A stretch of DNA of 64,000 nucleotides from Isoetes taiwanensis (taxonomy: Eukaryota > Streptophyta > Lycopodiopsida > Isoetales > Isoetaceae). The stretch spans positions 184,001 to 248,000 of the forward strand of contig JAJEKV010000185.1 of the NCBI GenBank assembly GCA_021234155.1, written 5' to 3'. Positions 15,171 to 40,908 of this stretch are shown here, piece after piece. The translations under genes and the position numbers were made by a program. Position 1 is the stretch's first letter; the number at the start of each line of letters is the position of its first letter. Under the pieces are notes generated by a model, which saw only the letters and a program-made list of their open reading frames with translations, searched no databases and was not told the DNA's origin.

Positions 15171-15352
15171 GTTATACCTATAGTGGGAGCCTTATCCCAT
15201 ATGCTGCATATAAGTCTTTTTGAGCGATTGCTGGGAGTCTTTTCTCTAAAATGAGGTAAGCCTTTTGTTCCCAGCTCGTACTTATACTTTTGCTCACGGG
15301 AATTATGCATCTTATATAATCTGCTAAGGGCCACAACATGTATGTCAATAGC

Positions 15353-17341: not shown

Positions 17342-17549
17342 GCCAATCGCACTTGGGAAAGAGCTAGAGGCCAGTATAAAAGCTATAGAAGAGGAAGAGA
17401 CTCGAGGGGTCGCTATTAGATATAAGACCATATGGTATGAGGTTGATCATGAAATCTTTAAATGTTTCTTTAGACCAGCAGAGCAAAGAGGAGGCAAAAA
17501 TTAAATCCTTGGTCACGGACAATTATGAGGGGTTGTCCAAAAAGGATCC
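17342..17549 (+). pseudogene. LINE ORF2 linker region, left half of a split LINE
   Basis: The frame reads LGKELEASIKAIEEEETRGV, then RYKTIWYEVDHEIFKCFF, then (after a one-base shift) SLVTDNYEGLSKKD. This is the spacer between endonuclease and reverse transcriptase of plant LINEs, where the sequence leads up to (D/N)..G and then the RT domain. The frame stops at the left end of the 20.5 kb element. It is continued in the same frame at 38054-38399, with the TE removed. The left limit coincides with the end of the tandem duplication. Confidence 0.7.
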
Positions 17550-17577
17550 GGTCTAAGTTAGATATTGGGGTACAAAA
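17550..17577 (+). repeat. Left terminal inverted repeat of 20.5 kb element
   Basis: 28 bp, identical to the reverse complement of 38021-38048. It is followed by a GC-rich stretch (17578-17660). Confidence 0.9.
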
Positions 17578-17879
17578 GCACCCGCCCGACGCTGGGCCGC
17601 TGCGGTTTGGTCCACTGCGTGCTTGGAGGTGCTTGGAGAGCCGGAACGCTGATGATCCGCTTTTAGCAAATTGCTTCCTGATCGATGATATGGCTACCCG
17701 CAAAATCAAATTGATGAGAATCAATTTGGCGGGTTGTTGTGAGATGGCATGGAGAGTGAATAGATTTGGCAATGGCGGAAGCATGATCCGTGTTGTACCC
17801 TCAACGAGAATTTTCTTTGTGCAAAGACGGTTTCTCAGACAACACAATTCTATGCACAACACGATTCTAAATGGATCAA

Positions 17880-19575
17880 TCAAAGATCGATTTAGATGAA
17901 GAAAAGCGACTTCAAATTTTCCGGGAAATTCAAGCCGAGAGAAGAAGGCAATCTAGACAGAGGAAAAGAGATAGGGAGAGGGAGAAAGAAAATATCCAAA
18001 ATCAAGTTGACAAATGGGCTTGAGTGCGAGAAGGCTTTCAAGAATTGTCCAAGAATTTGGACGATTATTTCAATAATATCACAAAGCCTTTGAAAGAAGG
18101 GGATAAGGCAATCGGTGCCGTGAAGAGAGTGAAGAAGAAATTGCCACCGAGGTGGATTTTGTTGATCATGATCAAAGCAAGGTCATGAAGAATGTAATTA
18201 GAAATGTTCAAGAGACACTCAATCAGCAAAAGAAACTAAGGAAGACAGATATAATGCAAGCAAGAAAGTCCACATTGCAAATGGTATCTTCAACAAAGAA
18301 ACAAACCAACCAAATTTAGCTGCACCTCCTTCATGTATCAAGAAAATCATTTGTTGCAAAAGAACCGTAAGAAGAGTAATGGCGTGACAAGAATGTGGTC
18401 CGTGGGTCAATGTTTTCAAGGAAAAAGATCAGATGCAATAACTCGATGAGGTTAAGAATTTTTTACAAGTTCGACAGAAAACACAAGAGTCTCACCATAC
18501 AGAAGCATGTGAGAAAGTTTGTTACAAAAAGATGGTGAAAAAATTGATCATCCAATACAACCGCTTGAAATTTCTCGTAATTATTATGCTTTATATGTTT
18601 TACCGCTTTGTTCTCGCTTTTACTATATTGCTGCTTTTAATTTTTTTTTTGAACTCAGATTTCTTTTGTTTATAGTTGCAATTTTACATGGCATTCAAAA
18701 AGGAATTCAATGAAATGAAGATTTCACAAACAAGACATTTGAATTGCTTTGGCCATCTTTTGTGAGGCATTTAAAAAGAAAGAGAGACCTGTTGCGCCAA
18801 TATCACATGCACTTTGAGTATGTGATGCAAGCACTCAACAAAATCGAGCATGATCCAAATGGGGTGCACAAAGAATGCAATTGTAATTGTGCCGCTTGTG
18901 GTGATGGTAACTTCAGAGTGCCAAGAACCATGTTTATAAATCCACTAGTGATTTTTGGAGGCAAATGGTCTGCCCTAAAGAAGAAGATGAAGAATGGCAC
19001 AAACATCAATGTCTCAGCTTGGCATGCAAAGATTGTGGGCTGAAAAGGTACTCTTAAGTTTGTCTTTTCAATGTTATGAAAGATATTAATGCCAAAGAAC
19101 TTTAATTGTGGTGTTATAAACAGTTTGCTTTTTTGTCCTAAGGAGAAGATAGAAACCGGATTACAAAGTGGAGGGAAACAGGTTTGAAAAGGTATTCTGC
19201 TTGGTTTAATTAAATTGTGCTCGTTTAACATTCTTTTTAAACAAACCGCAAACCCACAAAATGTTCATGGTCTGAAATCAGCAAGAAGTTGGATACATGA
19301 AGGAGACTACCAAGAAAAAAATGGGAGGGAGGAAACCAGCCAAAGTAACAAGACTTGCATACAAGAACGAGAGTCTGCCCGAGTTCATGAAGCATGCCAA
19401 CAAGACAATGGTACAATTTGTCACACACAATTATGTGGCACACTGGCAGGCAAAGCAATTCAGGACGTGTCACACTCACCCCGGTTTTTGGTCCACTGTT
19501 GAAAACATCAGTTTTGGTAGGTCTACATGTCCTGTTTTCAAAGAATCCTACATGTGGATTTGTGAAGGTATGGTT
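17880..19575 (+). pseudogene. DDE-type transposase-like gene, N-terminal part, frameshifted
   Basis: Coding pieces in all three frames read in order. First is a charged coiled coil (EEKRLQIFREIQAERRR, from 17890). Then LSKNLDDYFNNITKPLKEGD (18039), KRSDAIT and TRVSP-like stretches (18430-18500), and FVRHLKRKRDLLRQYHMHF with CNCNCAAC (18744-19043). Next comes W..HQC....CKDCG (about 19000-19045), then, after short introns, ESLPEFMKHANKTMVQFVTH with HWQAKQF (19297-19500). The order KRSDAxx, cysteine cluster, L-x-x-F-x-x-H-x-x-x-A-x-W-Q is that of a transposase-like family I know mainly from animal genomes, whose C-terminal half carries a DG-K...HGKG block. That half is found at 33150-33528 here. 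Many stops and shifts show decay. Confidence 0.55.
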
Positions 19576-19639
19576 TTGTTCGATAATGGTGTTCTTTTTT
19601 CAGTGGACTAAAACTTCCACTGTTGTTTTGTAGTTTCTT

Positions 19640-20180
19640 CTATTGTGACATGTCATTTTATAATACAATCCACTGTAGGAAAGAGTACTTGAATTTCTAC
19701 ATGTCTAATAATTCTATTGTCACATGTCTTTATAGATGTAGGAAAGAATATTTGATTCTCTACATGTCCTATACTTCCATTCACATGTCTTTATAGTAGT
19801 AGGACGTAGTACTTTATTTGCTAAGGCATTGTAGGAAAGAATACATGAATTACTTACATGTGTAATACTTCTATTGTCACATGTCTTTATAGAAGCCTGA
19901 AAAGAATACTTGATTCTCTACATGTCATATGCTTCCATGTCACATGTCTTTATAGTAGTAGGACAGAGTACTTTATTTGCTTAAGGCATTGTAGGAAAGA
20001 ATACATGAATTACGACATGTGTAACACTTCTATTCTCACATGTCTTTATAGAAGTAGGAAAGAGTACTTGATTCTCTACATGTCCTATCCTTCCATATCA
20101 CGGGTCTTTATAGTGGTAGGACGAGTACTTGATTTGCTACATGTGATGCACGGCACGATCACATGTTCTTATACTAGTAT
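19640..20180. repeat. Degenerate tandem repeat, about 55-70 bp units in a 165 bp higher-order period
   Basis: Units share TCACATGTCTTTATAG, TAGGA(A/C)AGA(A/G)TAC and CTACATGTCCTAT. The block TAAGGCATTGTAGGAAAGAA recurs at about 19824 and 19982. It begins within the presumed intron after the N-terminal transposase exons and adjoins the minisatellite array. Confidence 0.85.
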
Positions 20181-20240
20181 TCCATGTAACACAAGTTACT
20201 TCAACTACTTCAATTACTTAACACCTATTTTTGCATAACG

Positions 20241-21786
20241 TGGGCACCAACATGCCAAGGTGGCTCTAACATGCCACCTAGGCTCAAACATGCCAAGGTG
20301 GCTCCAACATGCCACCTAGGCTCCAACATGACAAAATGGCTCAAACATGCCACCTAGGCTCCAACGTGCTCCAAATATGCCACGCAGCTCCAACATGCCA
20401 CCTATGCTCCAACTTGCCAAGGTGGCTCAAATATGCCACACGGGCTCCAAACATGCCACCTAGGCTCCAACATTCCTAGGTGGCTCAAACATGCCACATA
20501 GGCTCAAACATGCCATGTGCTCACTTAGGTTCCAACATGCCAAGGTGGCTCCAACATGCCACCTAGGCTCAAACATGCCAAGGTGGCTCAAACATGCCAC
20601 CCAGGCTCCCCAACATGCCACCTAGGCTCAAACATGCCAGGTGCTCAAACATGCCAAGGTGGCTCAAACATGCCACCCAGGGCTCCAACATGCCACCTAG
20701 GCTCAAACATGCCAAGGTGGCTCAAACATGCCACGGGCTCCACCATGCCACCTAGCTCTCCAACATGCCAAGGTGGCTCACAACATGCCACCTAGGCTTA
20801 AATATGCCAAGTTGGCTCAAACATGCCACCTAGGTCTCCAACATGCCACCGCGTGGCTCTAACCCCGCCACCTAGGCTCAAACATGCCACATGGGCTCCA
20901 ACATGCCACGCGCCAAGGTGGCTCCAACATGCCACCCAGGCTCCAACATGCTCAAACATGCCACGCTGGCTCTAACATGCCACCTATGCTCCAACTTGCC
21001 AAAGTGGCTCAAATATGCCACGTGGGCTCCAACATGCCAAGGTGGCTCAAGCATGCCACACAGCCCCAACATGCCACCCAGGCTCTAACATGGCAAGGTG
21101 GCTCAAACATGCCACGTGGTCTCCAACATGCCACCTAGGCTCCAACATGCCAAGGTGGCTCCAACATGCCAAGGTGGCTCAAACATGCCACCTAGGCTCC
21201 AACGCGCTCAAACATGCCAAGGTGGCTCAAACATGCCACGTGGGCCCAACATGCCAAGGTGGCTCAAACATGCCACCCAGGCTCAAACATGCCAAGGTGG
21301 TTCCCACACGCCAAGGTGGCTCCAACATGCCACCTAGGCTCAAACATGCCAAGGTGGCTCAAACATGCCACCCAGGGCCGCAACATGACAAAATGGCTCA
21401 AACATGCCACCCAGGCTCCAACGCGGCTCAAACATGCCACGCGGCTCCAACATACCACCCATGTCTAACTTGCCAAGGTGGCTCAAATATGCCACGCGGC
21501 TCCAACATGCCACCTAGGCTCCAACATTCCTAGGTGGCTCAAACATGCCATCTAGGTTTCCAACATGCCACCCGTGCTCAAACATGCCGTGGCTCAAACA
21601 TGCCAAGGTGGGTTTCAAACATGCCACCTAGGCTCCAACATGCCAAGGTGGCTCAAACATGCCACGTGGACTCCATAATGCCACGTGGGCTCCAACATGC
21701 CAAGGTGGCTCCAACATGCCATGCAGGCTCCAACATGCCAAGGTGGCTCAGGCATGCCACCTAGTCTCAAGCATGCCACCTAGGCA
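20241..21786 (+). repeat. 19 bp minisatellite array 1 (forward)
   Basis: Around 80 units of about 19 bp, such as GGCTCAAACATGCCAAGGT and GGCTCCAACATGCCACCTA. The core GGCTC(A/C)AACATGCCA is well kept. The last four bases vary between AGGT, CCTA, CGTG, CCCA, CGCG and others. All three forward frames are nearly stop-free, which produces long artificial reading frames rich in MPPRLKHAK-type text. They are not genes. Confidence 0.97.
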
Positions 21787-21930
21787 CCCCAAGTGGTGAC
21801 ATGCCATGCCAAGTAAGCAAGGTCAAGTTTTGACTAGGTTAAAAACCAAAGATGTCCATCTTTGGTCTTTTTTCATTGGGTGATGTTGGCAAATTTTAGG
21901 TGACATGGCTAGATGATGGTGACATGGACC
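21781..21930 (+). repeat. Left arm of 150 bp inverted repeat
   Basis: The sequence from CACCCCAAGTGGTGACATGC through GATGTCCATCTTTGGTC to GGCTAGATGATGGTGACATG pairs with 24337-24485 in reverse complement at high identity. The arms separate array 1 from the 0.82 kb repeats. Confidence 0.9.
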
Positions 21931-21994
21931 TTGGATGTGTCCGCAAACACCGCGTGCACCTCGACGGCTGCCCCTTTCTTGTGAAGGGAGTTCC

Positions 21995-24025
21995 GAAAGG
22001 TATATATGTTGGTGCATTTTCTTCATGATGCAAAGGCCATGTCGCACATCCCGCCAAGATTTCACCTTTTTCGAGACCCGGATTTTTATCCGCTTTTTCT
22101 TTGTGTTTATGCTCCGGAAATTCATAATTAATGCATGGGGCAGGGAAAAATCCTGGTTTTCAGCCAGCTGGCTTGCCAAGGGCCCCGAGAGTATAGGAAA
22201 ATCCCCGTATTTTTGGATGAGTTTTAGACCCTCGATTTTTATTGGGATGGCTGCCGCTGGCCCCGACAAGGTTTAGACCACGCTTTCATTTCGATTTTGG
22301 GGCATGGAGGAGGCCCCGATTGGCGATCCGACCGCAGGCCGTCCCCGAATCCGGGAAATTACCCTAGGGGACAAGTTCCACGGCGAAGTTTTCCTGTGGA
22401 TCAATCACTTACCCCTCACTAGAGGTATTCAAAGATCCACCTCCATGCCAATTGACTACAAGTGTGTAGTAAACGCCTACTTTGGCTTTCTTGGAGAGGG
22501 GTGGTCTTCCCCACGAGACTTGGTCCCCTAGGTAATGGGGATGTTCCGGTCCATTGGGAGCCAGCTTCTCGGTTCCTAGAGTGGGGTCCAGCCTACCGCC
22601 CCCCCACTTGGACTAGCCTCATGAGAACAAGATACTTGGGGTTCACCCCAGGGCCCTGGTAGAAGATTGAAGTGAGAATAGCAGCACTAGGACTGCTAGG
22701 TGGTATACATGTGACCACGGGAGAAGCAAAGCTAGCTCCACTACCTAGTAGGACGCTACCGGTCCCTGGGTCTCCTAAGGGGGTTGGCTCTCGCCCTCAT
22801 GCCTCTCGCTTGTGCTTCTATTGCCTGGCAGATTTTCTTATGCGGTGCAAAGCCATGCCGCACATCCCCGCCAAGATTTCACCTTTTTCGAGACCCGAAT
22901 TTTTATCCAGGCTTTTTTTGTGTTTATGTCTCGAAATTCATAATTAATGCATGGGGCAGGGAAAAATCCTGGTTTTCAGCCAGCTGGCTTGTCAAGGGGC
23001 CCCGAGAGTATAGGAAAATCCCCGGGATTCGGATGCGCTTTAGACCCTCGATTTTTGATTGGGATGGCCACCGCTGGCCTTGACAAAGTTTAGACCACGC
23101 TTTTTTTGGGGCATGGAGGAGGCCCCCGATTGGCGATCCGACCTCGCCACAGCCGTCTTAACGGCTAAATTACCCTAGGGGACAAGTTCCACTATGAAGT
23201 TTTCCCTGGGGATCAATCACTTACCCCCACTAGGAGGTATTCATCATCCACCTCCTTGCCAATTGACTACAAGTGTGTAGTAAACTAATCTACTTTGGCG
23301 CTTTTTTGAGGGGGTGGTCTTCATTTACCTAAACTTGGTCCCCAGGTAATGGGGATGTTCCGGTCCATTGGCGAGCCAGCCTTGCCTCCTGAGTGGGGAT
23401 CCACCCAGCCCTCAAATTTCAAATTTTGGATTAGCCTCGCAAGAACAAGATACTTGGGGTTCACCCCGAGGCCCCGTAGAAGATTGAAGTGACAATAGGA
23501 GCACTAGGACTGCTAGGTGGTATACATGTGACCACGGAGAAGAAAAGCTAGCTCCACCGTCCAAGAGGGACGCCATCGACCCTGTGGGCCTCCCGGAAGG
23601 GGTTGGCTCGAAGCTCGCCCCATGCCTCCGCTTGTGCTTCTATTGTCTCTGCATTTTCTCTTGGCGGTGCAGCCCATGTTGCATATCCCCGCCAAGATTT
23701 CACCTTTTTCGAGACCCGGATTTTTATCCGTCAGGTTTTTTTTGTGTTTATGCACCGGAAATTCATAATTAATGCATGGGCGGGGAAAAAATCCTGATTT
23801 TCAGCCAGCTGGCTTGCCAAGTGGCCGCGAGCATACAGAAAATCCCCGTATTTTCGGGTGAGCTTTAGACCCTCGATTTTTGATTGGGATGGCCACCGCT
23901 GGGTTCCGACAGGTTTAGACCACGCTTTTTATTTTGGGGCATGGAGGAGGCCCCGGATTGGCGATCCGACCTTCCATGTCATCCGAACGCCGAAATTACC
24001 CTAGGGGACAAGTTCCACGCCCTCT
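21995..24025 (+). repeat. Three tandem copies of a 0.82 kb unit
   Basis: The anchor CCGCCAAGATTTCACCTTTT occurs at 22051, 22868 and 23689 (spacing 817 and 821 bp). Each unit contains AAATTCATAATTAATGCATG, CAGCCAGCTGGCTTG(C/T)CAAG and CCCTCGATTTTT. The region then encodes, in the first copy, GDKFHGEVFLWINHLP and YKCVVNAYFGFLGEGWSS (22304-22531). The second copy keeps recognisable but broken versions, and the third copy is truncated at about 24025. I do not recognise the protein. A diverged fourth copy lies at 25025-25290. Confidence 0.85.
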
Positions 24026-24336
24026 TGATCGAGGGAGAGCATCCCTCAATGTAAATCCTACCAAACCCTAGGGTTTGGTAGGGTTTACATCTCGAAAGGC
24101 CAAGACTTGAGACTAACACATCCGAAACTTTGCATGGAGTTCTCTCAGGTATGCTCTAGGGACCATGCCCCGAGATGGGGTCGAATCCCCTCACAAGAAC
24201 ATGTCGATCCGATGGGGTCACTCCTTCATCGAAAGGGGCTTGTGAGTTCTCCAAGATCCTTCTATTCTATCCCTTGCCAAACTCCTCTACAAAAAATTTC
24301 AAAGGTTATCATATTTCTTGCATAAAGTCCTAGTCA
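24026..24336. other. Unique spacer with a short palindrome
   Basis: It contains CCAAACCCTA next to TAGGGTTTGG (24062-24081), a perfect inverted repeat. No coding region is recognised. Confidence 0.6.
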
Positions 24337-24485
24337 CGCCACCACCATCTAGCCATGTCACCCAAAATTTGCCAACATCACCCAATGAAAAGACCAAAGA
24401 TGGACATCTTTTCATTTTTGGCCTAGTCAAAACTTGGCCTTGCTTACTTGACATGCCATGTCACCACTTGAGTGCCTAGGTGGCA
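24337..24485 (-). repeat. Right arm of 150 bp inverted repeat
   Basis: Reverse complement of 21781-21930, ending in CACTTGAGTGCCTAGGTGG, which runs straight into the reversed minisatellite array 2. Confidence 0.9.
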
Positions 24486-24766
24486 TGCTTGAGCCTAGGT
24501 GGCATGTTGGAGCCACCTTGGCATGTTGGAGCCTAGGTGGCATGTTGGAGCCTAGGTGGCATGCTGGAGCTCACGAGGCATGTTGGAGCCTAGTTGGCAT
24601 GTTGGAGCCTACGCGGCATGTTGAAGCCCGTGGGCATGTTGGAGCCTAGGTGGCATATTTGAGCCACCTTGGCATGCTTGAGCCTAGGTGGCATGTTGAA
24701 GCCAACTTGGCATGTTGGAGCTCAAAGGGCATGTTGCGCCCGTGGCATGTTATAGCCTAGGTGGCC
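24470..24766 (-). repeat. 19 bp minisatellite array 2 (reverse)
   Basis: About 15 units of the same 19 bp repeat as array 1 but in the opposite orientation, written on the plus strand as TTGGCATGTTGGAGCCTAGG and variants. The array and the 150 bp arm next to it mirror the left side. Confidence 0.95.
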
Positions 24767-25671
24767 GCACCCCCGTGAGACCTTGACATCACAAAGGTTA
24801 CCGAGGCGTGCTTTCCTACCAAAGCTCCTCCGGGAGGGCAAATGCCAATGCCTCCCTTCCCGGAACCCGTTTCCCTATCCCACCGCTGAATTCTCCATTC
24901 AAGTAACTTGCTTCGAAAGCAGTTCAAAAAATTCAAGATCCGTCCCCGAGAACACATTAAAGCGCCAAAGTGTCCCGGCAAATAACCGTAGAAACCCAAG
25001 TATTGTGTCGTTCGGGCAGTACAAAGGCTCCTGAATGGAGATTTGACTTCGCCATGTCGTCCAAAAATAAATAAATTACCACTCGGGGACCAGGTTACAT
25101 GGTCATTTTTTTGCAGCAAAAGAAACACTAAACCCTCTACATGGCAAGATTCGCACCCCTCCGCTAAGGCCAATTCACTACTTAACGTGTTGGACATGAG
25201 CTACTTTGGCGCTTCCGGAGCAGGGGTGGTCTTATGCCCACGAAATTTGGTCTCCAAGGTAATGTCGGTGTTTCGAGTCCATATATGAGTCGATCACGCC
25301 CGGTGGGAGAGTTGCCCGTCCCAGGGCGTGGACCTTCCAGAGAGGACCTTTGGGTCCAACTTCTTCCTCGAAGGTTTTAGGGCTCCATCTTCCGCATCAA
25401 TGCCCTCCCACTACCTCATGACATTGTGCAAGATCCCGTCCAATTTGACTAGGGTATGGCCTCCAAAAACGTAAACCCCGTTGTTGCCGTGTTATTGTAG
25501 GGTTTACGCTATGGAGGTCGAGTTTTATTCAGTTGCACTTGAGACATGGCCGAGAAGTCGCAGCTTGAAAACTCCCGCAATAGGAAGTGACGGAATGGGG
25601 TTTGGATTTATCCTTTCTCCCAATGTGGCAATTAGAAATCAAGAGCACCTTTTGGTAAGAATAAAAATTGT
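24767..25671. other. Spacer with a diverged fourth 0.82 kb-type unit
   Basis: At 25025-25290 the sequence follows the 0.82 kb unit: GGGGACCAGGTTACATGG, TACTTTGGCGCTTCCGGAGC, and a frame with YFGASGAGVV that parallels YFGFLGEGWS of copy 1. The rest shows no recognised gene. Confidence 0.6.
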
Positions 25672-25958
25672 TTGGGATCATTCGGGATGGCTAATAGATC
25701 CAAACTCATTATTTCAGTTGACATGGTTCCAGATGCATGTTTAGAAAAGGTGCACCTAATTATCTAAAAAGCGACCACGTTTTGGCCTCCAAAACATAAA
25801 CCCTACAATAACCTAGCAACACACGTGGTTTACATTTCTCGGAGGCCAAAACACTACCGCTTTCTTGATAACTAGGTGCATCTTTTCTAAACATAGTCTT
25901 GAGCCAAGGCAAATAAATAACAGAGTTTAGAACTATTGGCCATCCCGAATGATCCCAA
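25672..25958. repeat. Large palindrome, arms about 130 bp
   Basis: The left arm begins TTGGGATCATTCGGGATGGC and contains TTTAGAAAAGGTGCACCTA and TTTTGGCCTCC. The right arm ends with the reverse complement of the same landmarks. The loop is about 20 bases near 25815. It lies directly before minisatellite array 3. Confidence 0.9.
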
Positions 25959-28900
25959 ATGCCACCTAGGCTCAAACATGCCAAATGCCATCTAGGCTCC
26001 AAATGCCACCTAGGCTCAAGCATGCCAAGGTGGCTCAAACATGCCACGCAGCTCCAACATGCCACCTACACTCTAACATGCCAAGGTGTCTTAAACATGC
26101 CAAGATGGCATGCCACCTAGGCTCAAAGATGCCACGTGGATCCAACATGCCAATGCCAGGCCTCAAATGCCACCTAGGCTCAAGCATGCCAAGGTGGCTC
26201 AAACATGCCAAGGTGGCTCAAACATGCCACATGGGCTCCAACATGCCGCCTAGGCTCCAACATGCCAAGGTGGCTCAAACATGCCATGTCGGCTCCAAGA
26301 TTGCCACCTAGGCTCAAACATGCCAATGTGGCTCAAACATGCCATCTCGGGCTCCAACATGCCACTTAGGCTCAAACACACCAAGGTGGCTCAAGCATGA
26401 CACCTAGGTTCCCAACATGCCACCTAGGCTCCAACATGCCAAGGTGGCTCAAACATGCCATCTAGGCTCCAAGATGCCACCTAGAATCCAATGTGCCACC
26501 TAGGCTCCAATATGCCACCTAGGCTCAAACATGCCAACATTCCACCTAGGCTCAAACATGCCAAATGCCACCTAGGCTCAAACATGCCAAATGCCACCTA
26601 GGCTCCAAATGCCATCTAGGCTCCAATATGCCATCTAGGCTCAAACATGCCAACATGCCAAGGTGGCTCGACATGCCACCTAGGCTCCAATATGCCACCT
26701 AGGCTCAAACATGCCAACATTCCACCTAGGCTCAAACATGCCAAATGCCACCTAGGCTCCAAATGCCAAGGTGGCTCAAACATGCCACCAGACTCCAACA
26801 TGCCACCTACACTCTAACATGCCAAGGTGTCTCAAACATGCCAAGATGGCATGCCACCTAGGCTCAAAGATGCCACGTGGATCCAACATGCCAACTAGGC
26901 TCCAAATGCCACCTAGCCTCAAGCATGCCAATGTGGCTCAAACATGCCACTTATTTGGGAAAAGGAAGAAATGGGCCACACAAAAAAATGTGGGAAGAGA
27001 GAAGAAAAAAAAGGGCATGGAAACAGGGGAAAGAAAAAATAGGAAGGGCTTAGAAAAAGATGAAAAGGGAAGAGAAAAAAAGCCTATCGAAAAAAAAAGA
27101 AATGGGAAGGAAAAGGGAAAGGGAAAGGGGAAAAGGGTGTCTCAAACATGCCAAGATGGCATGCCACCTAGGCTCAAAGATGCCACGTGGATTCCAACAT
27201 GCCAACTAGGCTCCAACATGCCACCTAGGCTCAAACATGCCACCTAGGCTCCAACATGCCACCCAGGCTCAAACATGCCAAGGTCACGCCACCCAGGCTC
27301 CAACATGCCAAGGTGGCTCAAACATGCCACATGTGCTCCAACATGCCACCTAGGCTCAAACATGCCAATGTGGCTCAAACATGCCATGGGTCTAACATGC
27401 CACTTAGGCTCAAACATGCCAAGGTGGCTCAAGCCACACACCTAGGTTCCAACATGCCACCTAGGGTCCAACATGCCAAGGTGGCTCAAACATGCCACCT
27501 AGGCTCCAAGATGCCACCCGAATCCAATGTGCCACCTAGGCTCCAACATGCCACCTAGGCTCAAATATGCCAACATGCCATCTAGGCCCAAACATGCTAA
27601 CATGACACCTATGTCTCCAACATGCCACCTAGGGTCAAACATGCCAAGGTGGAGCAAACATGGCGTGATGGATCCAACATGCCACCTAGGCTCCAACATG
27701 CCACCTAACATGCCAAGGTGGCTCAAACATGTCACATGAGCTCCAACATGCCACCTAGGCTCCAACATGCCATCTAGCTCAAACATGCCATGCGGCTTCC
27801 AACTTGCCACTTAAACTCTAACATGCCAAGGTGGCCACCTACGCCAAACATGCCACCTTTGTTCCAACATAGCAAGGTGGTTCAAACATGCCACCTAGGC
27901 TCAAGCATGCCAAGGTGCTTCAAACATGCAACGGGGGACCCAACATGCCACCTAGGATCTAACATGCCAAGGTGGCTCAAACATGCCATCTTCGGGCCCA
28001 ACATGCCACCTAAACTCCATCATGCCACCTAGGCTCAAACATGCCACCTAGTCTCCAACATGCCACCTAGGCTCAAACATGCCAAGGTGGCTCAAACATG
28101 CCACGCAGCTCCAACATGCCACCTAAACTTTAACATGTCAAGGTGTCTCAAACATGCCAAGATGGCATGCCACCTAGGCTCAAAGATGCCACGGGTTCCA
28201 ACTTGCCACCTAGGCTCAAACATGCCAACTAGGCTCAAACATGCCAAGGTCACACCACCTAGTCTCCAACATGCCAAGGTGGCTCAAACATGCCACGTGT
28301 GCTCCAACATGCCACCTAGGGTCAAACATGCCAATGTGGCTCAAACATGCCATGCGAGGCTCCAACATGCCATTTTACGCCAAACATGCCAAGGTGGCTC
28401 CAAGCATCGACACCTAGGTTCCAACATGCCATCTAGGCTCCAACATGCCAAGGTGGCTCAAACATGCCACCTAGGCTCCAAGATGCCACCTAGAATCCAA
28501 TGGGCCACCTAGGCTCCAACATGCCACCTAGGCTCAAACATGCCAACATGCCACCTAGAGTCAAATATGCCAACATGCCATCTAGGCTCAAACATGCCGA
28601 CATGACACCTATGCTCCAACATGCCACCTAGGCTCAAACATGCCAAGGTGGCTCAAACATGGCAAGATGGATCCAACATGCCACCAAGGCTACAACATGC
28701 CACCTAACATGCCAAGGTGGCTCAAACATGTCACATGAGCTCCAACATGCCACTTTAATATGCCAAGGTGGCTCAAACATGCCACACGGCTTCCAACTTG
28801 CCGCTTAAACTCAAAACATGCCAAGGTGGCTCAAACTTGCCACCTATGCTCCAACATGGCAAGTTGGCTCAAACATGCCACCTAGGCTCCAACATGCCAC

Positions 28901-29585
28901 ATAGACTCCAACTTGCCACCTAGGCCCAAGTATGCCAAGGTGGTTCAAACATGCAACGCGGGCCCCAACATGCCACCTAGGTTTCAATATGCCAAGGTGG
29001 CTCAAACACGCCACCTTCGCCCAACATGCCACCTAAACTCCATCATGCCACCTAGGCTAAAAACATGCCATCTAGGCTCCAACATGCCACCTAGGGTCAA
29101 ACATGCCAAGGTGGCTCAAACATGCCACCTAGGCTCAAACATGCCACGCGGGGCTCAAACATGCCAAGGTGGCTCAAACATGCCACGGGCTCAAACATGC
29201 TAATGGGCTCTAATATGCCATCTAGGCTCCAAGATGCCACCTAGATTCCAACATGCCACCTAGGCTCAAGCATGCCAAGTTGGCTCCAAACATGCCACAT
29301 GGGCTTCAACATGCCAAGGTGGCACAAACATGCCAAGATGGCTCAAACACGCCACCTAGGTTCCAACATGCCACCCAGGGCTCAAACATGCCACGGTGCT
29401 CAACATGCCACCTAGGCTCAAACATGCCAAGGTGGCTCAAACATGCCACCTAGGCTCCAACATGCCAAGTTGGCTCAAACATGCCACCCAGGGCACCAAC
29501 GCCACCTAGGATCAAACATGCCAAGGTGGCTCAAACACGCCACCCAGGGCTCCAACATGCACCTAGGCTCAAATATGCCACGGGC
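25959..29585 (+). repeat. 19 bp minisatellite array 3 (forward)
   Basis: About 180 units of the same 19 bp repeat as arrays 1 and 2, forward orientation, interrupted by a purine tract at 26950-27137. Internal higher-order repeats are visible. For example, the block from 27140-28000 is repeated with changes at 28080-28800. It includes recurring 8-10 bp shortened units (CATGCCAAATGCCACCTAGG). Reading frames in it are repeat artefacts. Confidence 0.97.
26950..27137. repeat. Purine-rich tract inside array 3
   Basis: About 190 bp that is almost entirely A and G on the plus strand, with runs such as GGAAAGGGAAAGGG. It breaks the 19 bp array abruptly on both sides. Such tracts can form intramolecular triplexes. 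Whether this one does is unknown. Confidence 0.9.
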
Positions 29586-30102
29586 ACTCATCGCTCCACC
29601 TTCTTTAGAAAAATGCCTCGCAATGCAAACACGACACCAAGCATGCATGCCTATGCATTGCTTTTGGATGAGGCATAAAGGGGCTAGAATATAACAGACT
29701 TAAGCTCACCAGGCTTCTTTGCCCTCCGCTTATGCTTCTCATTCCAAACTTCATTCTTCTCGGTTGCACAACACAAAACATGGATCGATTGTGCATTGAT
29801 ATTGGAGAGCCATGGTTGAAGGAGATGGGGAGGCTAATTTCATGGCTTTTCTAATTTCGTGGACCGTTGATGCAAAATTTTACAGATCCAACGGTTGGAA
29901 ACAATATCAAGTGACATGGCGAAAGCAATGTGGACACCTTAGAATTCAAAAATCTAGCACCTTGAGCCTCGCTAAATAAATAAATAAATAAAATTAAAAC
30001 AAAAAAAAGAAAAAACTAATAGGTGGTCTCTATTTTCCTTAGAATAAAAGCACCCATTAATCAAAAAATAATATTTTTATGCACGCAGCGTGGTAAACGC
30101 GC

Positions 30103-30188
30103 ATTTTACTCAATGGCCAAAATGATCAAAAGATTTTACTCAATGGCCAAGATGAACCGCATTTTACTCAATGGCCAAAATGAATCGT
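30103..30188. repeat. Triple 28-30 bp tandem repeat
   Basis: ATTTTACTCAATGGCCAA occurs at 30103, 30133 and 30161 with similar flanks (AATGATC, GATGAACC, AATGAATC). Confidence 0.9.
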
Positions 30189-32174
30189 AAAGATCTTGAT
30201 CCATGTCCTATGCTCTTATTGGTTCTCAAACTTAATGGTTGAGATTGAGGGCTGAGATCAACGCACGATTGAAGGCTTAGAATGAGTTTTTGGCCTAGTT
30301 TTGGAGGAACAGATGGCTATGGCGATGGGAAGGGTTTCGCCAAGAAGCTTTTTTGTATGGTCAGTGGCGATGGGAAGGGTTTCGGCCGCTGGCTATGGCG
30401 GCCCCGATGGAAGAAATTCACGGAAAAAGCATAGCAAATGTTTTTTGGAAGAGCTGGAGGAATTGAACCTCCGGGCGTGGTGGCCTCACCAATGCCACCT
30501 CCTCAAGCATTTTACAACCCGGAATCGTAGCCATGGATCATCCGGGCTGGCGATAAGGCTTGAGGTAAGGTTATATTATTTATTCTTCTGCAAAGCTTTT
30601 TCTTGTTCAACATTCTATTCTTGCTTTTGTTCTCTAGCTATGGTGACGATGACGCAAATCCGGCAGTGCTCTTGAACGCAAGCCAAGGGAACATTGATCC
30701 CTTATTTTTCTTGTCCAGCTTGAGTTTTAAAGCACTCTTTTATGGTGTTTGAAGGCGTTGTTTCTAGGATCCAAATGGATAGCATGAAACTAGTGGCGAT
30801 AAGATCTTTTGGGGCCCCGGTTGAATCATTATTTCGGTTTTTTTTTTTCTATCTGACCGACATTTTCATTTACAGGGTTCCTCTGAACAGTAGCAATGGC
30901 CAGAGCTTCATTCCTCCACGGATTTAAAATCTCTGTATGGGACGATCCAAAAGAATATTAGATGTTGCTGTTTTTAAGCAGGCAAAGTAAGAAAACTGCA
31001 CTCTGTCAAATAAGTATTTGCAAGCTTGAAATTATTTGCTCATCTCCACCTTGATTTTTTATATTTAGGAAGTATGAACTTTAGCCTTCGCAAGGGCGGG
31101 CACATATCAAATGCTTCACTGTTTTCAAAAGCGGTAAGAAACTATAAACTTCCCAGTTTTCCGGATTATATTATATATCTCTATTCTTTTTTTTTGCCGG
31201 GGTTTTTGCTATAGTTCAAAGCTTCGATAAGGGATTTCTACTCCTATTTCAGTTCGTCTAGATTTGTTGCTTCTATGACTTTGTTGATCTTTCCTTCTCC
31301 CTCTTCCCATATGCCTAGTTCCTATACCCAGGTTATTTAGCTTTAATTTGACTCTTATACTATCTCATTTATGTGTCGGGGTAGTTCAAAACCATAAAAG
31401 CTTCTTGCTCTACTAAGCCTTGCATTTGGTCCAACATCATTGTGCTTGATAAAGGTAGAGGATAAGCAAGCGGTGGAATTGCCTAGCCCATGTTTTTAGT
31501 ACATTGTTACTCCCATGGTGCCTATATGAACATCATCTTCAATTACGAGTAATTTATGTTCTTGTTCTTAACTTTTTTTTTGTTTCTCAGGTCTTACAAG
31601 GTTATGCCGCAAATAGAAGATCCAGTTCCAAGTCATCAAATATTGTCACACTGCTGTTTATGATGCAAAATAAAAAATAAATTGTATTAAAGAAGAACAT
31701 ATGATCTTGTGTTCACTTTTTTTTAAATAATATTAAAGATTTGATCATATTGTCTCTCTGTGTATAATTAAGAATGTATGTTCATAAGGCATGGACACTA
31801 AATGAAAATGTCGCATCACGAAATATGTAACAGAATCTAAAAGTGTGAAGAATACAATACCAAGAAAGACATGTGCAAAAGAAAAAAAACAATACACTTT
31901 TTCCAAACAACATTTCATAACATCAATGTGCTTTTAAATAAAAACATTAGAAACCACAATGCTTTTATCTGTAGCATTGTTTCTCGTGTAGTATTGCTTT
32001 GTTTACATGTTTAATTTTTTTTTTTTTTTTTTTTTAACGTGTGGTGTTTCAAATTTTAACACAAAAATGAAAGGCCATGTGTGTTTTTATTTTTTTTTTT
32101 TTGGCAACAACAACACTTGGAAATAATAGCCACTTTAAAGGAATGGTGTGTCTATTTTCTAATAACTACATATT

Positions 32175-32580
32175 GTATCGAGGAAAACAACATTTGGAAA
32201 CAACAAATATCTTTTAAATAATATATGTGGATTCATGAAAACTACACGATATTATTTTTTAGGAAAACAACGCCAATTTAGAAAAACTACAAGTAGAGGA
32301 AAAAAAAATACACATAGAAAAGGAAATTACCTATATTTTTATGAGGGAAAACAATAATGGAAAACAATGGCACCTTTTAAAAACTACATATGGAGACAAA
32401 ATATCAACATATAGAAAATTGGAAACATTTGAATACAACAATTATTTTTAAAATAATACATATGAATTTCTTGAAAATTACATATCCTTTTTTGGGAAAA
32501 ACAATGTCAATTTAAAAACTACAAGTGGAGAAAACAAAACAACACATATTGAAAAGGAAAAAAAAACAACTTTTTTTTTG
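32175..32580. repeat. Diverged AT-rich tandem duplication, period about 255 bp
   Basis: The landmarks ACAACAA.TAT.TTTTAAA, GAAAA.TACA..ATA, GCCAATTTAGAAAAACTACA/GTCAATTTAAAAACTACA and AAGTGGAG recur in order in both halves, at low identity. Confidence 0.6.
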
Positions 32581-33149
32581 GTTTTTCGCGTACTAATATT
32601 TAAACCTACATGTGTTTTTGAAGATAAATAACGCCAGTAGCTCCTCAAAAAACGTAAAAACTACACGCCGAAAAAGTTCTGGTAAAAACAACAACAAAAA
32701 AAAGGACACGCTTGACAAAAACAAAAAAGTGCCAAAACCACCGTGGATTTTTGCCAAAACCACTTTGCTCTTTTGTGCAAATCCGGATAAATGGGCCACG
32801 TGGACTTTGGGGCCATTTTGGTGTTGTTTTTGGCATAAAACAACACTTCCGCACAAGTAAAAAACAACCGTGGACCAAAATTCGGTCGGTGTGTGTTTGG
32901 ATACCTTTCCGAAGATGCAATTGTCTCTCAGAATTGACTTTGCTGAAAATTACAGCTTTAAAATTCGAGGGAGGCACAATCTTGCCAATCGGCACCTGAC
33001 CAAAATTCTCAATTCCCGTTCATATCACATATAGACATGCAACCCAAGCCGAGATAGAGGAGATGGAAGTTAAAGAGGCAGAGCAAAGAGAAGCAGAGGG
33101 ATAAGTGAAAAAGAAAGAAGAAGACAAGTCAGAGATCATCAACACAAAT

Positions 33150-34290
33150 CGGAGGAGAATTATAAAGGAAGTGCAATTTTATATTTCAGATGACAGGGAG
33201 CATAGTCCTGAGTTTGTACAACATTGCTTGAAAGTACATGCCGACCGGCTTAGAGCACGTTAACATTGAGTACAAGAAACATATTTTTTGGAGTGATGGT
33301 TGCACATCCCGCTTTAAAGGAGCAAGGCCTTTCCGGTATTTAGGAAGGAACTATGTGTGTAGTGGAGGAATTGAGTATGAGTGGAATTTCTTTGCTTCTC
33401 ATGGCAAAGGAGAACATGATGGACAAGGTGCAATATTGAAAAGGGTTTTGGCAAGAGAGCAATTGAAGTATGAGTCCTCGAAATTGGAGCGTGCCAAAGA
33501 CATTGTCGATTTCATGAACCGTACATGATGAACAATCCACCGCACTTCATATAAGAAGGTAAATTCTTTTTTTTTCTTATATTTTTCTTATTGAAGTTGC
33601 ATGAATCGTTTTATATTGCAGTTCTTTTGGCATATTGATCCCCAAAATGTAGACAACTGAAAGGAAGGAGTGGAAAACACTATGTGGGAGCTCTAAACTT
33701 CATTGCATCGACCATGTGACAAAAAGAACCCCGCAAAAGTTGCTTACGATGCCTCTCTTGCTATTGTTCCTATTGCTTTCATGGTAAAAGGGATTACTTG
33801 CACTAACAAAGCACGTTTGGGGAGCATGGCTCACAAAGAATCGAAACCAAAGGTTGCTTGAAGAAACATCCACAAAGAATTAGTCGAGGAAGAAGAAGAA
33901 GATGAAGAAGAAGAAGATGAAGAAGTAGATTACCTTAGTTCTCTTCTAGAAGTTGGAGATAACTTTGTCAGTAAATGCACATCCGGAAGATGAAGAGGGA
34001 GTTGACTTTTATGTTCTTAGGTGTACGAGACTAAACACACATTGTTAGATGCATATGAAGATGCTTGGGGTACTGCATTTGGTGTAGGAGAAGTTATAGT
34101 TTCCGCCATTACTACAAAGCAAACGGATGCACTCCAATTTGAGTTGCTATTGGACAAGCCAGTTGCTAGTTTGTATAGCCACCTTGTCAGACAGGTGAAG
34201 TTTGATATGGAGAATCTTGGTAACAACATTTTCAAGATGAGTGAAGAGACATGCCAAAAAGTTATGGCATCCCTTCCAGTAGAGTGCTAA
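33150..34290 (+). pseudogene. DDE-type transposase-like gene, C-terminal part, frameshifted
   Basis: The frame reads VQFYISDDREHSPEFVQHC (33169-33240). After a one-base shift it reads FWSDGCTSRFKGARPFRYL, then W.FFASHGKGEHDGQGAILKR (33238-33528). The conserved SDG...K, HGKG and DG.GA.K block is the signature of the catalytic core of this transposase-like family. Downstream are an acidic run of Glu/Asp (33885-33935) and a frame ending at 34290 (TLLDAYEDAWGTAFGVGEVI). It continues the N-terminal half at 17880-19575. About 13.5 kb of repeats lie between the two, most likely inserted in an intron. The identification is from motif pattern only. Confidence 0.6.
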
Positions 34291-34854
34291 TTCTGCTGCC
34301 CTTTTTTTCTGCTTTTGCTTCAAGAAGTAGTTGAGTTTTTTAGATGTACAATCGGCTCTTTCCCCGCCATATTCTTTCTTATATTCTTTATAATTAGTTA
34401 TCAATGAAAACTAACAAATTCTTTCTTTTGCACAAATGTTCCTTGTCCTCACAGCTTTAAAAGAAAAGCTCAGATGGGTCTGCTTTTCATACTTATGCTT
34501 TGTCTGCTTACATGCTTTATGTTTTCAGTTAACTATTACAGACTTGATGAACTTCTGGAAAACAGACTTGATGGACATGGAAAACAGATTGAAAGTTTAC
34601 AAGTGTACACAAGTGTAGGTAAATGCCTGAAACATTGGATTTACATTAATATCCGTTTCTGTTACAAAAGTGTACAGCTATGTACTCATATCCAGTATTC
34701 ACAAAAAAACAGCTGTTATAACTTAAGTTACATCTTAAGTTACATGAAGTTCTTAAAGTCCAGTATCTTCAATGTTCTCAAAGTCAGCATCTTCAATGTG
34801 GGTCTGATCTTGTGTTATTTCTTCTCTTGCGGTTTCCTCCCCGTTTATCGGTAT

Positions 34855-35686
34855 TTATGCAATGGCGGTCTGATCAGTAGCTTCAATGTGTTCAGTATCA
34901 GTATGGAGAATCTGTGTTATGTCTTCTTTTGCATGTTCATCCAATTTTTCAACACCAACAATAGCTTTCACCAATTGCATGCTTCCCTCAATTGCTACTC
35001 TCCATCTTGCAAGTTCTTTCAAGTGGTCAACAGTAAGATTGAGTATGTTGATGTCTACTTCCTTGACCACATCAACATGAAGCTGCTGGTGCAACCACTT
35101 TTGAGGATTCTTTGAATGAAGCCAAGTGTGCAAACATGCTTTAAGGTAGTTGAATACCTTATCATTTTCTTCATTGTCAAAGCTCTCAACTATTAAACAT
35201 GTGTCCTGCGGTGGGGACAAGAAAGTCTTGTACAAAGAGTCATCCACAAGCACAACATCCCATACATCATTAAAAGTCGTGTAAACTTTGACAATTGGCT
35301 TCATAAATACAGGTTTGGTTGCATTGCCTGAAACATAAAGGCATTGCCTCACACTCATTCGACCCCATATGAATTTGAATTTAGCAATGTAGTGTCTTTG
35401 GCGGAATCTTTATTAAGGATTTGTATGATGTTGTGCTTCATCATGCTAGACCAAATCCCAACTTCAAATCTTTCAAAACTCCAATCCAAGAACTCTTGTA
35501 AAAAAGGTCTGCAAATAACCACTTTTCCTGGGCATGTAATGCTTCTTGAGCCCCGGTGGAATTTTTTAATCTTGCTCCTTTTTGGAAGGTGTTGACTAAA
35601 ACTCCATTAATGTCTAAGATGACAAGTTTTTTCTTTTCTAAATCCTCTCTAACATTCATAAGAAAAAGAATCTTAAACATCAACAT
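34855..35686 (-). pseudogene. FCP1/NIF-type HAD phosphatase-like gene, frameshifted
   Basis: Three minus-strand frames read in order as one FCP1-homology domain. KKKLVILDINGVLV (about 35620-35580) is HAD motif I. RPFLQEFLDWSFERFEVG with IWSSMMKH (about 35510-35430) is the region around motif II. After a shift, FIWGRMSVRQC (about 35380) and KPVF.KPIVKVY lead to VVLVDDSLYKTFL (about 35250), the VDD of motif IV. Classical motif I is DxDxT/V, but here the second Asp is Asn (DIN), as in a divergent plant subgroup, so phosphatase activity is doubtful. FCP1 domains dephosphorylate serine in proteins such as the RNA polymerase II C-terminal tail. The stop is at about 34855. Shifts near 35540 and 35400 make it a pseudogene unless short introns remove them. 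It lies inside the 20.5 kb element. Confidence 0.75.
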
Positions 35687-35854
35687 GACAACAATTAAAG
35701 AATTATAGAAATTACAATATTAAAACAGAAAACAGAATTAAAGGTTACAGTGATTAATTAAAGAAAACCAAATTACATTCAAACAATGTTCTCAAACAAC
35801 ATAAAACAAGTAAAACAGTATTTCACATACACCACAATATGTTATGTTCTGAAA

Positions 35855-36511
35855 CTAACTCAATGACTTGATATACTGAGAAACAGAACCTGAACTACCA
35901 TTTAACATTTTCAAAATAATATCAACTTGATCACCTATTTGCTTTGGTGCTTGAGGTGGCAAAACTTCTTTGAGGGTCTCCCAATCTTCTTTTTGTTCTT
36001 TTGTTGTTGCTACCTCCATTTCAACCGCTGCTTCACCCTTATCCTTATCTTTCTCAACAAAGATCTTCAAAGAATCTGCAAGGCAAGAACATCATCTTCA
36101 TTTGCTTGTTCTTCATCATCAAGCTTTGAACATCTACAGCGCAGCCGATAGAACTTTCTCCTCAGTTTGCACTCCTCAACCTGGTCTTTATGCCAATTGC
36201 GGGAACCTTTTGCACAACCAGTTGTTCATAATATTCTTCCGAACCGCTCTCAACAACACATGAACGCGTTTATCCTTTTTTTTTCTTTGGCCCCTTACTA
36301 AAAAATTTGAATTCTGAACTTTGCCGCTTAGAACACAAATCAATTTAAATGAGATTAAGTTAGTTAAAACACAAATAAGAAATATCAAAGTCTTACCTTC
36401 TCGCAAAGCTTCTACGACTTTCCTTCTTCGGACTTGGTGACACTTGAGCTGATCACAAGATGATACAACATTTTTGGTGACTCGTAGTGTGAAGCAACAA
36501 AGCTTACCCAC
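35855..36511 (-). pseudogene. Unidentified charged protein, exon-like pieces
   Basis: Minus-strand pieces are RVTKNVVSSCDQLKCHQVRR with VVEALREG (about 36495-36400) and VVESGSEEYYEQLVVQ (about 36255-36205). Next is CKLRRKFYRLRCRCSKLDDE (about 36175-36110). After a TTGCCTTGCAG acceptor-like site comes SLKIFVEKDKDKGEAAVEME, then KQIGDQVDIILKML, ending at 35855. GTAAGAC at about 36395 could be a donor. No family is recognised. It lies directly downstream of the coiled-coil/RING frames and may be the 3' part of that gene. Confidence 0.35.
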
Positions 36512-36615
36512 AGTGCTTTATTAAATAATAAAGCGGTGAAGCCATAGGTGAAGCTCTGGGTGTAACAAGACCGGAAAACTTATCAGGTGAAGCAAATGCA
36601 CTACTAGTGCCTACC

Positions 36616-37754
36616 TCAAATGCAATCGGCTGAATCACGCAAGTCTTCTTCACCTGCAACCTCTAGACCAAGTTCCACAAAAACTTCCCTGGGAACTTCC
36701 TTCAAGCACCTGAAGCATGTCTTCTTTTCATACAAAAGCATGCAGCATGCCAAGTGATAGACATGTTCACATGGTAATGCCATACTCAATTTATATTTTG
36801 GATTGAAGACCAATCCACATGCAGCACATGCATCTTCCATGAAACCAGGCAACCTGCTTTTCATAGTTATGATAGACATTTTTGATATATCTGAGTCCAT
36901 CAATTGTCAATTCCAGTGAAGTTTTTAATCTTTCCTTCTTTTCCTTCTCCTGTAATGCTTCAACACTAACCTTTGGAAGGCAAGCCTCCAGTTTAGAGCA
37001 AAAATATATTTCACCACTTATTTTTGCCTTTAACTCTTCAATCTGCTTCAGGTCTCCATCATTCTTGTCTGCTTTGGCATTCAAAGCAGACAACTCATTC
37101 TCCATTCTTGCTATCTCGTTCCTTCCAAGCTCAATCATCCTCTCTTCCCTTGCTAAAGAGTTCTTATCTACCTCAATGGTACTAATTATTTTTACCGGAT
37201 CGGTTAATACAGTTTTGTAAATCTGTTTCCAACTTACTAACCTCCTCTTCAATCAAAGAAATGTTGAAACTTAAATTGGAAACAGAAAACTCAGAAGACT
37301 GGCCTGCTTTCCCCTTAAATTCAAGTTGAGGTGTTGATCTGCCTGAAGCTACAGGTGTACTTTGGCATGAAGGAACTGTATTTTTGATCCTTTTAACATC
37401 TTCTTTTTTAACATCAATGTCATCCCTTTTTCTCCTGGACCAAACATTAACCTGTTTCTTGTAAGCATCCCAATCAACCCTATGAGCCTCAGGGTTATGC
37501 TCTGCCCGACTACAGTTTTCCCATGCAAATGATAATGCTACTAGCTTCCTCAATTCATTATTCGGGACACCTCCATCTCCATACAAGAAATCGATCAAGC
37601 CATCCAATTTCTGCTTCAAATAAGGGCGAACAAAGTAGATTTTGATTTTGCCTGAAACCATTGGCTCAGACCAAACACTGTTCCAGTCATCTGTAGTAAC
37701 ATTTTCCGCAAGCCATTTCAGCTTTTGCTGTGGGATGATTCCTTCACCAGCCAT
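36616..37754 (-). pseudogene. Coiled-coil RING-like zinc protein, two frameshifts
   Basis: A start at 37754 (MAGEGIIPQQKLKW) is preferred over the upstream Met because the sequence before it is hydrophobic and unlike a protein N-terminus. The first 140 residues form an unknown domain (LIDFLYGDGGVPNNELRKLV). They are followed by a Lys/Arg-rich patch and a coiled coil (SLIEEEVSKLETDLQN continuing in the next frame with EERMIELGRNEIARMENELS). The C-terminus is RING-like: CAAC, then PCEHVYHLACC, then CFRC (36830-36690). This arrangement would bind two zinc ions and is typical of E3 ubiquitin ligases. Frame changes near 37195 and 36905 join overlapping frames without a gap, so each is consistent with a single-base indel. 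It sits inside the 20.5 kb element on the strand opposite to the transposase remnants. Confidence 0.6.
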
Positions 37755-38020
37755 GAGAAAAGAAGATAGTTTAAAAAAAAGTAGCAAGAAACAAAGAGGT
37801 CGGAGCAAGCGCCTTGAAGAGGATGATTCAATTTGTAAAATGCCGGAATCGAAGTGCAATCGAGGAGCAAATTGGCCTGTACAATTCAATTAGTAACAAT
37901 GGGCACGAATACTTACACCTCTGACAATCAAAATCATTGTTCGCCGAAAAGGCGCGGAAATCGAAAAGGTGCGTCCGGGCACTGCTTCGCGTGCTTTCTC
38001 CGCTTCCGCTTCTCGCGCTT

Positions 38021-38048
38021 TTTTGTACCCCAATATCTAACTTAGACC
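38021..38048 (-). repeat. Right terminal inverted repeat of 20.5 kb element
   Basis: Exact reverse complement of 17550-17577. It is preceded by GC-rich sequence (37955-38020). The next base (C at 38049) and ATCC (38050-38053) mark the likely element/target boundary. Confidence 0.9.
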
Positions 38049-38053
38049 CATCC

Positions 38054-38399
38054 CCTCCCAAATGACTATTATAGTTGATGCTCTGAGTGGCTTCCCTCTT
38101 TGAGGCAAGGCTAGCTAGTGACTGAGGAAGAAAATGAGCTTCTACTTCAAGAGCCTCGAGATGTAGAAATCTACAAGACTCTATGCTCTTTAGCTTCTGG
38201 TAAGTCCCTAGGACCTGATGGATTCCCTCCAGAATTCTATGTAGAATTTTGGAATATACTTGGGCCATTCTTTATTGCTGCAATCAAGGGAGCATGGGCA
38301 GCCCAATACCTTCACCAAGCCCTAGCAACTGGCTTTATCTCTTTGATTCCAAAAGTCAGTAAGCCCCAGGTGCTAAATGAATGGAGACCAATGGCATGA
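38054..38399 (+). pseudogene. LINE reverse transcriptase N-terminal part, right half of the split LINE
   Basis: It continues the frame of 17342-17549 after the 20.5 kb element. The sequence reads VTEEENELLLQEPRDVEIYK, then GKSLGPDGFPPEFYVEFW, then TGFISLIPKVSKP with EWRPMA. This is the start of the LINE RT domain (consensus GKSPGPDGFP.EFY..FW and ..LIPK.......D.RPI). The RT catalytic YADD is missing because the sequence is cut at about 38399. Stops at about 38082 and 38115 show decay. Confidence 0.85.
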
Positions 38400-40815: not shown

Positions 40816-40830
40816 CTCTCCCTTTATATT
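40816..40830 (-). promoter_or_regulatory. Polypurine tract of the Copia element
   Basis: On the minus strand AAAGGGAGAG stands immediately before the TGAAGAG start of the 3' LTR, the site for plus-strand DNA priming. Confidence 0.85.
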
Positions 40831-40908
40831 ATAATCCCTGCAATTTATCTTATCTCTTAACTGACTGTATTTGATCTCTGTCAAGGGTTTAGTAAGAATA
40901 TCAACCAA

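Follow-up and report, generated by a model that had tools for sequence, protein, structure and literature searches.

This report concerns a 64,000-nucleotide stretch of the genome of Isoetes taiwanensis (contig JAJEKV010000185.1, positions 184,001 to 248,000 of the forward strand), referred to below as the window, and in particular an interval of about 20.5 kb in which three mobile elements lie one within another. A long interspersed nuclear element (LINE) is interrupted there by a DNA transposon of about 7.1 kb, the outer element, and the transposase gene of the latter is in turn interrupted by a CACTA-like element of 13.4 kb. The outer element carries two convergent genes, the transposase gene (gene 1) and a second gene (gene 2), the product of which combines a RING-like finger with a phosphatase-like domain of the NIF/FCP1 type. 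An earlier sequence-only reading had taken the whole interval for a single 20.5-kb element, of a size unusual for a plant transposon, with the RING and FCP1-type genes as its cargo and possibly of an undescribed family. Coordinates of the features are collected in Table 1.

The interrupted LINE and the ends of the outer element

The two flanks of the interval, joined with one copy of ATCC, gave an empty-site query of 236 nt, which begins at 17440 and has its junction at 110|111. A search of the host genome with this query returned 112 candidates, of which 40 were scored. One of the 40 is the right flank of the window itself; the remaining 39 all continue across the junction, from query base 46 on, with 86-90% identity and, in 36 of the 39, with equal query and hit lengths; two of them additionally match query bases 1-47. 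Since none of these places is interrupted at the joined site, the interval entered a single LINE copy as one insertion, which had been proposed from the reading frame, and the empty site is restored once the element is taken out. The reverse transcriptase start, on the right flank only, resembles that of human L1 ORF2p (E 6.7e-4).

The exact 28-bp inverted repeats bounding the interval, which had been seen in the sequence-only reading, have no further occurrence within the window. Exact inverted-repeat pairs of at least 20 bp number 134 in the window, and the eight that lie at least partly outside the satellite region at 20-29.7 kb comprise three poly-A/T pairs, two readings of one palindrome, two parts of a repeat at 51.7-52.4 kb and the terminal inverted repeat (TIR) of the outer element. 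The host genome (1.66 Gb) was searched with the first 151 bases of the element (302 first-look candidates) and with its last 301 bases (275 candidates), 40 being scored in each case; the top non-self copy among those scored for the right end has a rounded identity of 100%. In sister copies the TIR is 29 bp long, begins with GGG (GGGTCTAAG...), reads GGGTCTAAGTTAGATATTGGGGTACAAAA and is accompanied by 4-bp target duplications. The window copy has the full 29 bp at its right end, including C38049, and has lost the terminal G at its left end. The window duplication is therefore read as ATCC, so that the flanking ATC(C) repeats are a real target duplication; the alternative of ATC as a 3-bp duplication, with a mismatch in the TIR, was dropped in favour of 4 bp once the sister copies had been read.

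The sister set consists of 20 stretches, each about 10 kb long and taken around a left end, and four further stretches (L037-L040). Both ends are present in 13 of the 20, and identical 4-bp repeats stand outside the 29-bp TIR in 12 of these 13, the exception being L014. Among the four further stretches, the 4-bp repeats are identical in L037 and in L038 and differ by a single base in L039, and L040 has one end only. L018 and L037 share flanks and were counted as one site, and overall 14 of the 16 copies with both ends have identical duplications (CTAT, CATT, TATA, ATAG, AATA, GAAT, CCCA, ACTT, ATGA, TTAC, TTTG, GTTG and ATTA). The search for facing pairs of the 28-bp terminus elsewhere in the genome, a check set beforehand, thus gave a positive result, and the outer element, having facing TIRs and duplications of fixed length at many sites, is a cut-and-paste TIR DNA transposon.

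With the nested insert of 13,423 bp subtracted, the outer element measures 7,073 bp from TIR to TIR (28-bp reckoning), a size ordinary for a DNA transposon. Eight of the 16 two-ended sister copies span 7,053-7,142 bp, and the other eight measure 6,832, 6,286, 4,285, 3,651, 3,494, 3,441, 3,257 and 270 bp. The six copies below 5 kb look non-autonomous, because their likeness to the window copy is confined to the ends. Pairwise identity among ten long copies and the window copy is 87.6-97.5%.

Two further features of the family may be recorded here. Five copies (L013, L017, L020, L027 and L028) are derivatives of 3.3-4.3 kb that share only 200-380 bp with the window copy on the left and 50-65 bp on the right and have other middles; in three of them one end bears the variant TIR GGCGTAAG. 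At outer-element positions 5001-5500 (about 35976-36475 of the window) the window copy is 83-89% identical to all ten sisters, as against 89-98% in the two neighbouring blocks, a drop due either to local divergence or to conversion.

A CACTA-like element nested in the transposase gene

Alignments (tblastn) of transposase relatives to the window break off at 19470 and resume at 32894, and with relative P0001 both alignment blocks contain one and the same residue, a cysteine coded TGT. The sequence between the breakpoints begins and ends with CACAC... termini, which form an imperfect TIR of about 28 bp sharing TTTTGGTCCAC and have TGT on both sides; the TIR score of 28 was reached by two of 4909 random pairs. 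On removal of the 13,423 bp the transposase frame continues as QFRTCLDTFPKMQLSLRIDFAENYSF, and the insertion point is intact in all 11 sister copies that cover it (L009, L014, L018, L019, L021, L022, L025 and L037-L040). The claim of a single 20.5-kb element accordingly fails, 13.4 kb of it being a second element.

This insert is itself a member of a numerous family. Its left end, searched over 230 bp, gave 1040 first-look candidates, and all 40 scored places, its own included, show a rounded identity of 100%; its right end gave 1116 candidates, and the 39 other places scored are 88-90% identical. Five facing pairs of these ends, 7.5 to 15.4 kb apart, were found elsewhere in the genome, each with equal 3-bp duplications. 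By its ends, a TIR beginning with CAC together with 3-bp duplications, the insert is CACTA-like and agrees with the CACTA (En/Spm) elements; it differs from them in starting with CACAC rather than CACTA and in its large minisatellite body, and no transposase, of the Tnp2 type or other, and no Pfam family at E<=0.01 was found in the six frames of the scanned parts (21800-24440, 24780-25950 and 29590-32893), the scan covering neither the satellites nor 19471-20230. The numbers and likeness of its ends suggest that the nested family is the product of a recent burst. Left ends at a rounded 100% and right ends at 88-90% form an asymmetry within the family. Arrays of a 19-bp minisatellite (CTCCAACATGCCACCTAGG type), in both orientations, occupy 20237-21783, 24474-24765 and 25955-29581 within the insert.

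The transposase

Both halves of a transposase gene are present between the TIRs, as the sequence-only reading had stated. The window gene is a broken copy, in which short introns with GT..AG borders seem, by eye, to be present, and the window element is dead. The product is a predicted enzyme of the three-aspartate (DDD) type with an RNase H fold and presumed catalytic function; the predicted model of a relative resembles retroviral integrases and Mos1. The D of the HGKG..DG motif, for which a catalytic role is predicted, is invariant in the eight rows of alignment A4, the preceding E being not invariant.

The motif set had been thought to occur mainly in animals. Animal relatives indeed exist, uncharacterised transposase-like proteins of wasp, beetle, tunicate, fly and butterfly, in which the DFAEN and S....H blocks are invariant and SDG..QFK and HGKG at least nearly invariant, but they sit outside a 13-row clade that contains the window family and a moss (P0093, Ceratodon), and closer relatives are found in a moss and in other sequences. 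Pattern searches of viral and GTDB contigs yielded 62 and 74 matching stretches, respectively, and no confirmed relative among them, and an origin from viruses or prokaryotes was set aside on this basis. In Pfam no transposase family matches gene 1, and no family exceeds its cut-off in the 10 + 9 relatives scanned, DUF7869 touching P0069 just below it; Rfam gave nothing at gathering score in the window. In the host genome the transposase exon has 144 matches.

The second gene and its pairing with the transposase

Gene 2 runs on the minus strand from 37754, the first ATG of its frame, to about 34858. Its N-terminal part is followed by a coiled coil, predicted by eye, then by a RING-like finger and last by an NIF/FCP1 domain. 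Both parts named in the sequence-only reading are present; they are not cargo but belong to a second gene, in convergent orientation to that of the transposase. The NIF part scores 53.6 and 53.3 bits against PF03031 (cut-off 21.8), and some of the sisters have it as an open frame of 303 aa. The catalytic motif of NIF/FCP1 phosphatases is DxDx(T/V), and motif I departs from it, reading DINGV in L021 and L025 and DLNGV in the diverged loci L051 and L052; with such a DxNG motif, phosphatase activity would be expected to be low or absent. The cysteines and histidines of the RING-like finger are retained in the diverged subfamily L051. The nearest PDB sequence to the FCP1/NIF part is UBLCP1 (E 3.8e-4), and homologues of the whole stitched gene 2 were not found among 7991 scored candidates. 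The NIF exon gives 137 matches in the host genome, including open frames of about 300 aa (87-100% identity) and 253 aa (66-68%), and gene 2 is present in the sister copies of full length as well as in subfamilies that have diverged.

A transposase lies within 15 kb at 52 of 122 compared NIF places, against a chance expectation of about 0.002 per place, and the two are convergent at 50 of the 52, over NIF identities from 100 to 42%. Sorted by NIF identity, the linked places are 29 of 52 (80-100%), 16 of 43 (60-79%) and 7 of 27 (40-59%). The diverged loci L051 (68%) and L052 (43%) have both genes, the fetched stretches both ending inside the transposase, and in each the N-terminal, coil/RING and NIF parts of gene 2 are all matched; at the gene-2 end of L051, moreover, 24 bases of the TIR are preserved without change.

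The ratio of nonsynonymous to synonymous substitution rates (dN/dS) between L021 or L025 and L051 is 0.22-0.23 for NIF, 0.19-0.25 for coil/RING and 0.18-0.20 for the transposase, and to L052 it is 0.33-0.35 for NIF and 0.11-0.12 for the transposase. L021 and L025, which are close copies, give 0.81 (NIF), 0.46 (coil/RING) and 0.42 (transposase) when compared with each other, as expected of decaying copies. Codon positions in close copies show no third-position excess in the transposase and NIF exons and a slight one in the N-terminal and coil/RING parts (20, 33, 23 in the control). Taken together, the convergent pairing, the diverged two-gene loci and the dN/dS between subfamilies show gene 2 to be a long-standing partner of the transposase, kept under selection, and no local cargo.

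Table 1. Features of the nested locus in window coordinates
Feature	Position	Strand	Basis or remark
Left part of LINE (linker before reverse transcriptase)	17342..17549	+	From 17485 on matches 39/39 other scored LINE places
Left target duplication ATCC, outer element	17546..17549	.	4-bp duplication from sister copies
Left TIR, outer element	17550..17577	+	28 bp exact; terminal G of 29-bp TIR missing
5' part of transposase pseudogene	17871..19470	+	tblastn with relatives; basic N-terminus, zinc-chelating region, to ...QFRTC
Left target duplication TGT, nested element	19468..19470	.	TGT flanks CACAC termini
Nested 13,423-bp CACTA-like element	19471..32893	+	TIR CACAC...TTTTGGTCCAC; 19-bp minisatellite arrays; absent from 11/11 sisters
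Right target duplication TGT, nested element	32894..32896	.	tblastn breakpoint and TGT repeat
3' part of transposase pseudogene, to its stop	32894..34287	+	DFAENYSF, ISDD..H, SDG, HGKGEHDG, CxCxxC, C-terminal domain
Gene 2, NIF/FCP1-type phosphatase domain, broken	34858..35719	-	PF03031 E 2.7e-14 on stitched pieces; motif I DxNG
Gene 2, RING-like finger	36619..36906	-	zf-RING_2 E 0.0021, below Pfam cut-off
Gene 2, N-terminal part with coiled coil (predicted by eye)	36794..37754	-	First ATG of the frame at 37754; matched in L051 and L052
Right TIR, outer element	38021..38048	-	29 bp with C38049
Right target duplication ATCC, outer element	38050..38053	.	4-bp duplication from sister copies
Right part of LINE (reverse transcriptase start)	38054..38399	+	Human L1 ORF2p match; joined-site search

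Other elements in the window

Outside the nest, two long stretches (2552-6519 and 12027-15650) repeat one another, mostly at a spacing of about 9.47 kb and with 96-100% identity in the listed pieces, and represent a duplicated or a nested retroelement. A 298-nt direct repeat (97%), its copies at a distance of 4,483 bp, stands at 40518-45298 on both sides of minus-strand frames that have a zinc knuckle and look like a GAG-pre-integrase; we take this element to be Copia-like. An inverted repeat at 51670-52382, with 134-bp arms (96% complementary) and 445 bp between them, resembles a miniature inverted-repeat transposable element or a foldback element. Open frames stand at 59511-60200 and, beside a diverged sister element, at L051:1209-1835, and presumably correspond to the DUF4218 part of a CACTA transposase, to judge by eye.

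Origin of the nest and alternative explanations

The LINE copy was first entered by the cut-and-paste transposon of about 7.1 kb, with its 29-bp TIR and 4-bp duplication, and later the CACTA-like element, duplicating TGT, entered the transposase gene of the former. The two convergent genes of the 7.1-kb family start about 300 bp inside each end. The gene 1 product, a DDD-type transposase with RNase H fold, would bind the TIRs, excise the element and reinsert it with a 4-base stagger; the coiled-coil protein encoded by gene 2 has a RING-like finger together with a phosphatase-like domain of the NIF/FCP1 type. To this anatomy of three nested mobile elements, together with the DDD cut-and-paste mechanism, we assign a probability of about 0.9. 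For gene 2, a role in mobilisation or in interaction with the host, its likeliest targets being silencing by the host, transcription or the turnover of proteins, is the somewhat favoured assumption.

Whether the interval could nevertheless be one 20.5-kb transposon, with a minisatellite-filled intron of 13.4 kb in its transposase, may be asked because the insert lies inside a gene in which other short GT..AG introns are apparent by eye. The boundary of the supposed intron is a duplicated TGT codon beside CACAC TIRs, the interval is wanting in all 11 covering sister copies, and the same ends recur at more than 1000 first-look candidate places, with 3-bp duplications in five of five facing pairs; the TGT/CACAC boundary and the uninterrupted sisters rule out the intron, and hardly any likelihood is left to a single transposon. 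That the RING and FCP1 parts are pieces of host genes, captured as a passenger, is suggested by the nearness of UBLCP1 and by the frequency of FCP1/NIF domains in host proteins, but is improbable in view of the convergent arrangement at 50 of 52 linked places down to 42% NIF identity, of the joint presence of all gene 2 parts in L051 and L052 and of a gene-2 dN/dS of about 0.2 between subfamilies. An ancient capture, since retained, is a variant compatible with these observations.

The classification of the family is less certain than its anatomy. Sola elements are described as having a DDD transposase, 4-bp duplications and mostly 2-9 kb, as present in Physcomitrella and as uncommon in flowering plants (PMC10741241); Physcomitrella Sola1 and Capsicum are listed for Sola (PMC9033089), SOLA elements are mentioned in Azolla (PMC6786969) and Sola2 has AT-rich 4-bp duplications (PMC3627910). 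The window family shares with Sola1, Sola2 and Sola3 the 4-bp duplications, a predicted DDD type of transposase, the size range and the TIRs, and differs in its second gene with RING-like and NIF/FCP1 parts, which the Sola descriptions at hand do not mention. On account of its 4-bp duplication and its DDD pattern it is probably Sola-like, a likeness drawn from published descriptions. KDZ, Zator, Academ, Kolobok, Ginger and others were further superfamilies considered. A superfamily of its own seems rather doubtful: in its favour are the want of any Pfam match above cut-off in the 10 + 9 relatives, with only the near-miss of DUF7869 on P0069, and a literature search in which no text joined 'HGKG' and 'transposase', and against it stands the agreement of duplication, DDD pattern, 2-9 kb size and occurrence in moss with the published Sola description. 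Mutator elements have target duplications of 7-12 bp and TIRs that can exceed 300 bp (PMC10741241), unlike the 4-bp duplication and 29-bp TIR found here. The layout is nonetheless like that of the MuDR type. In MuDR and other two-gene plant DNA transposons two convergent genes start one near each end, as in the window family. No DNA transposon with such a RING/NIF second gene turned up among the titles listed in the literature search. The family is filed here as a Sola-like two-gene family, in which the pairing of the transposase with a second gene of RING-like and phosphatase-like parts is unusual for such elements.

Implications

Few second genes of plant DNA transposons are recognised, among them mudrB and VANC, and they have taught much about escape from silencing. 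It is a tentative thought, less probable than its contrary, that the present family represents a plant transposon lineage, at the level of a superfamily or deep subfamily, with an obligate pairing between the transposase and an element-encoded RING-like and FCP1-like protein that may counter host silencing or modify the transcription machinery and thereby let the element move. The nest also serves as a warning that nesting can give the false impression of a 'giant' transposon. The role of gene 2 is made testable by the presence, within one genome, of diverged subfamilies that have open frames, and a conserved partner with RING and FCP1-like parts, if true, would bring control by ubiquitin, or of a kind resembling that of the carboxy-terminal domain of RNA polymerase II, into transposition.

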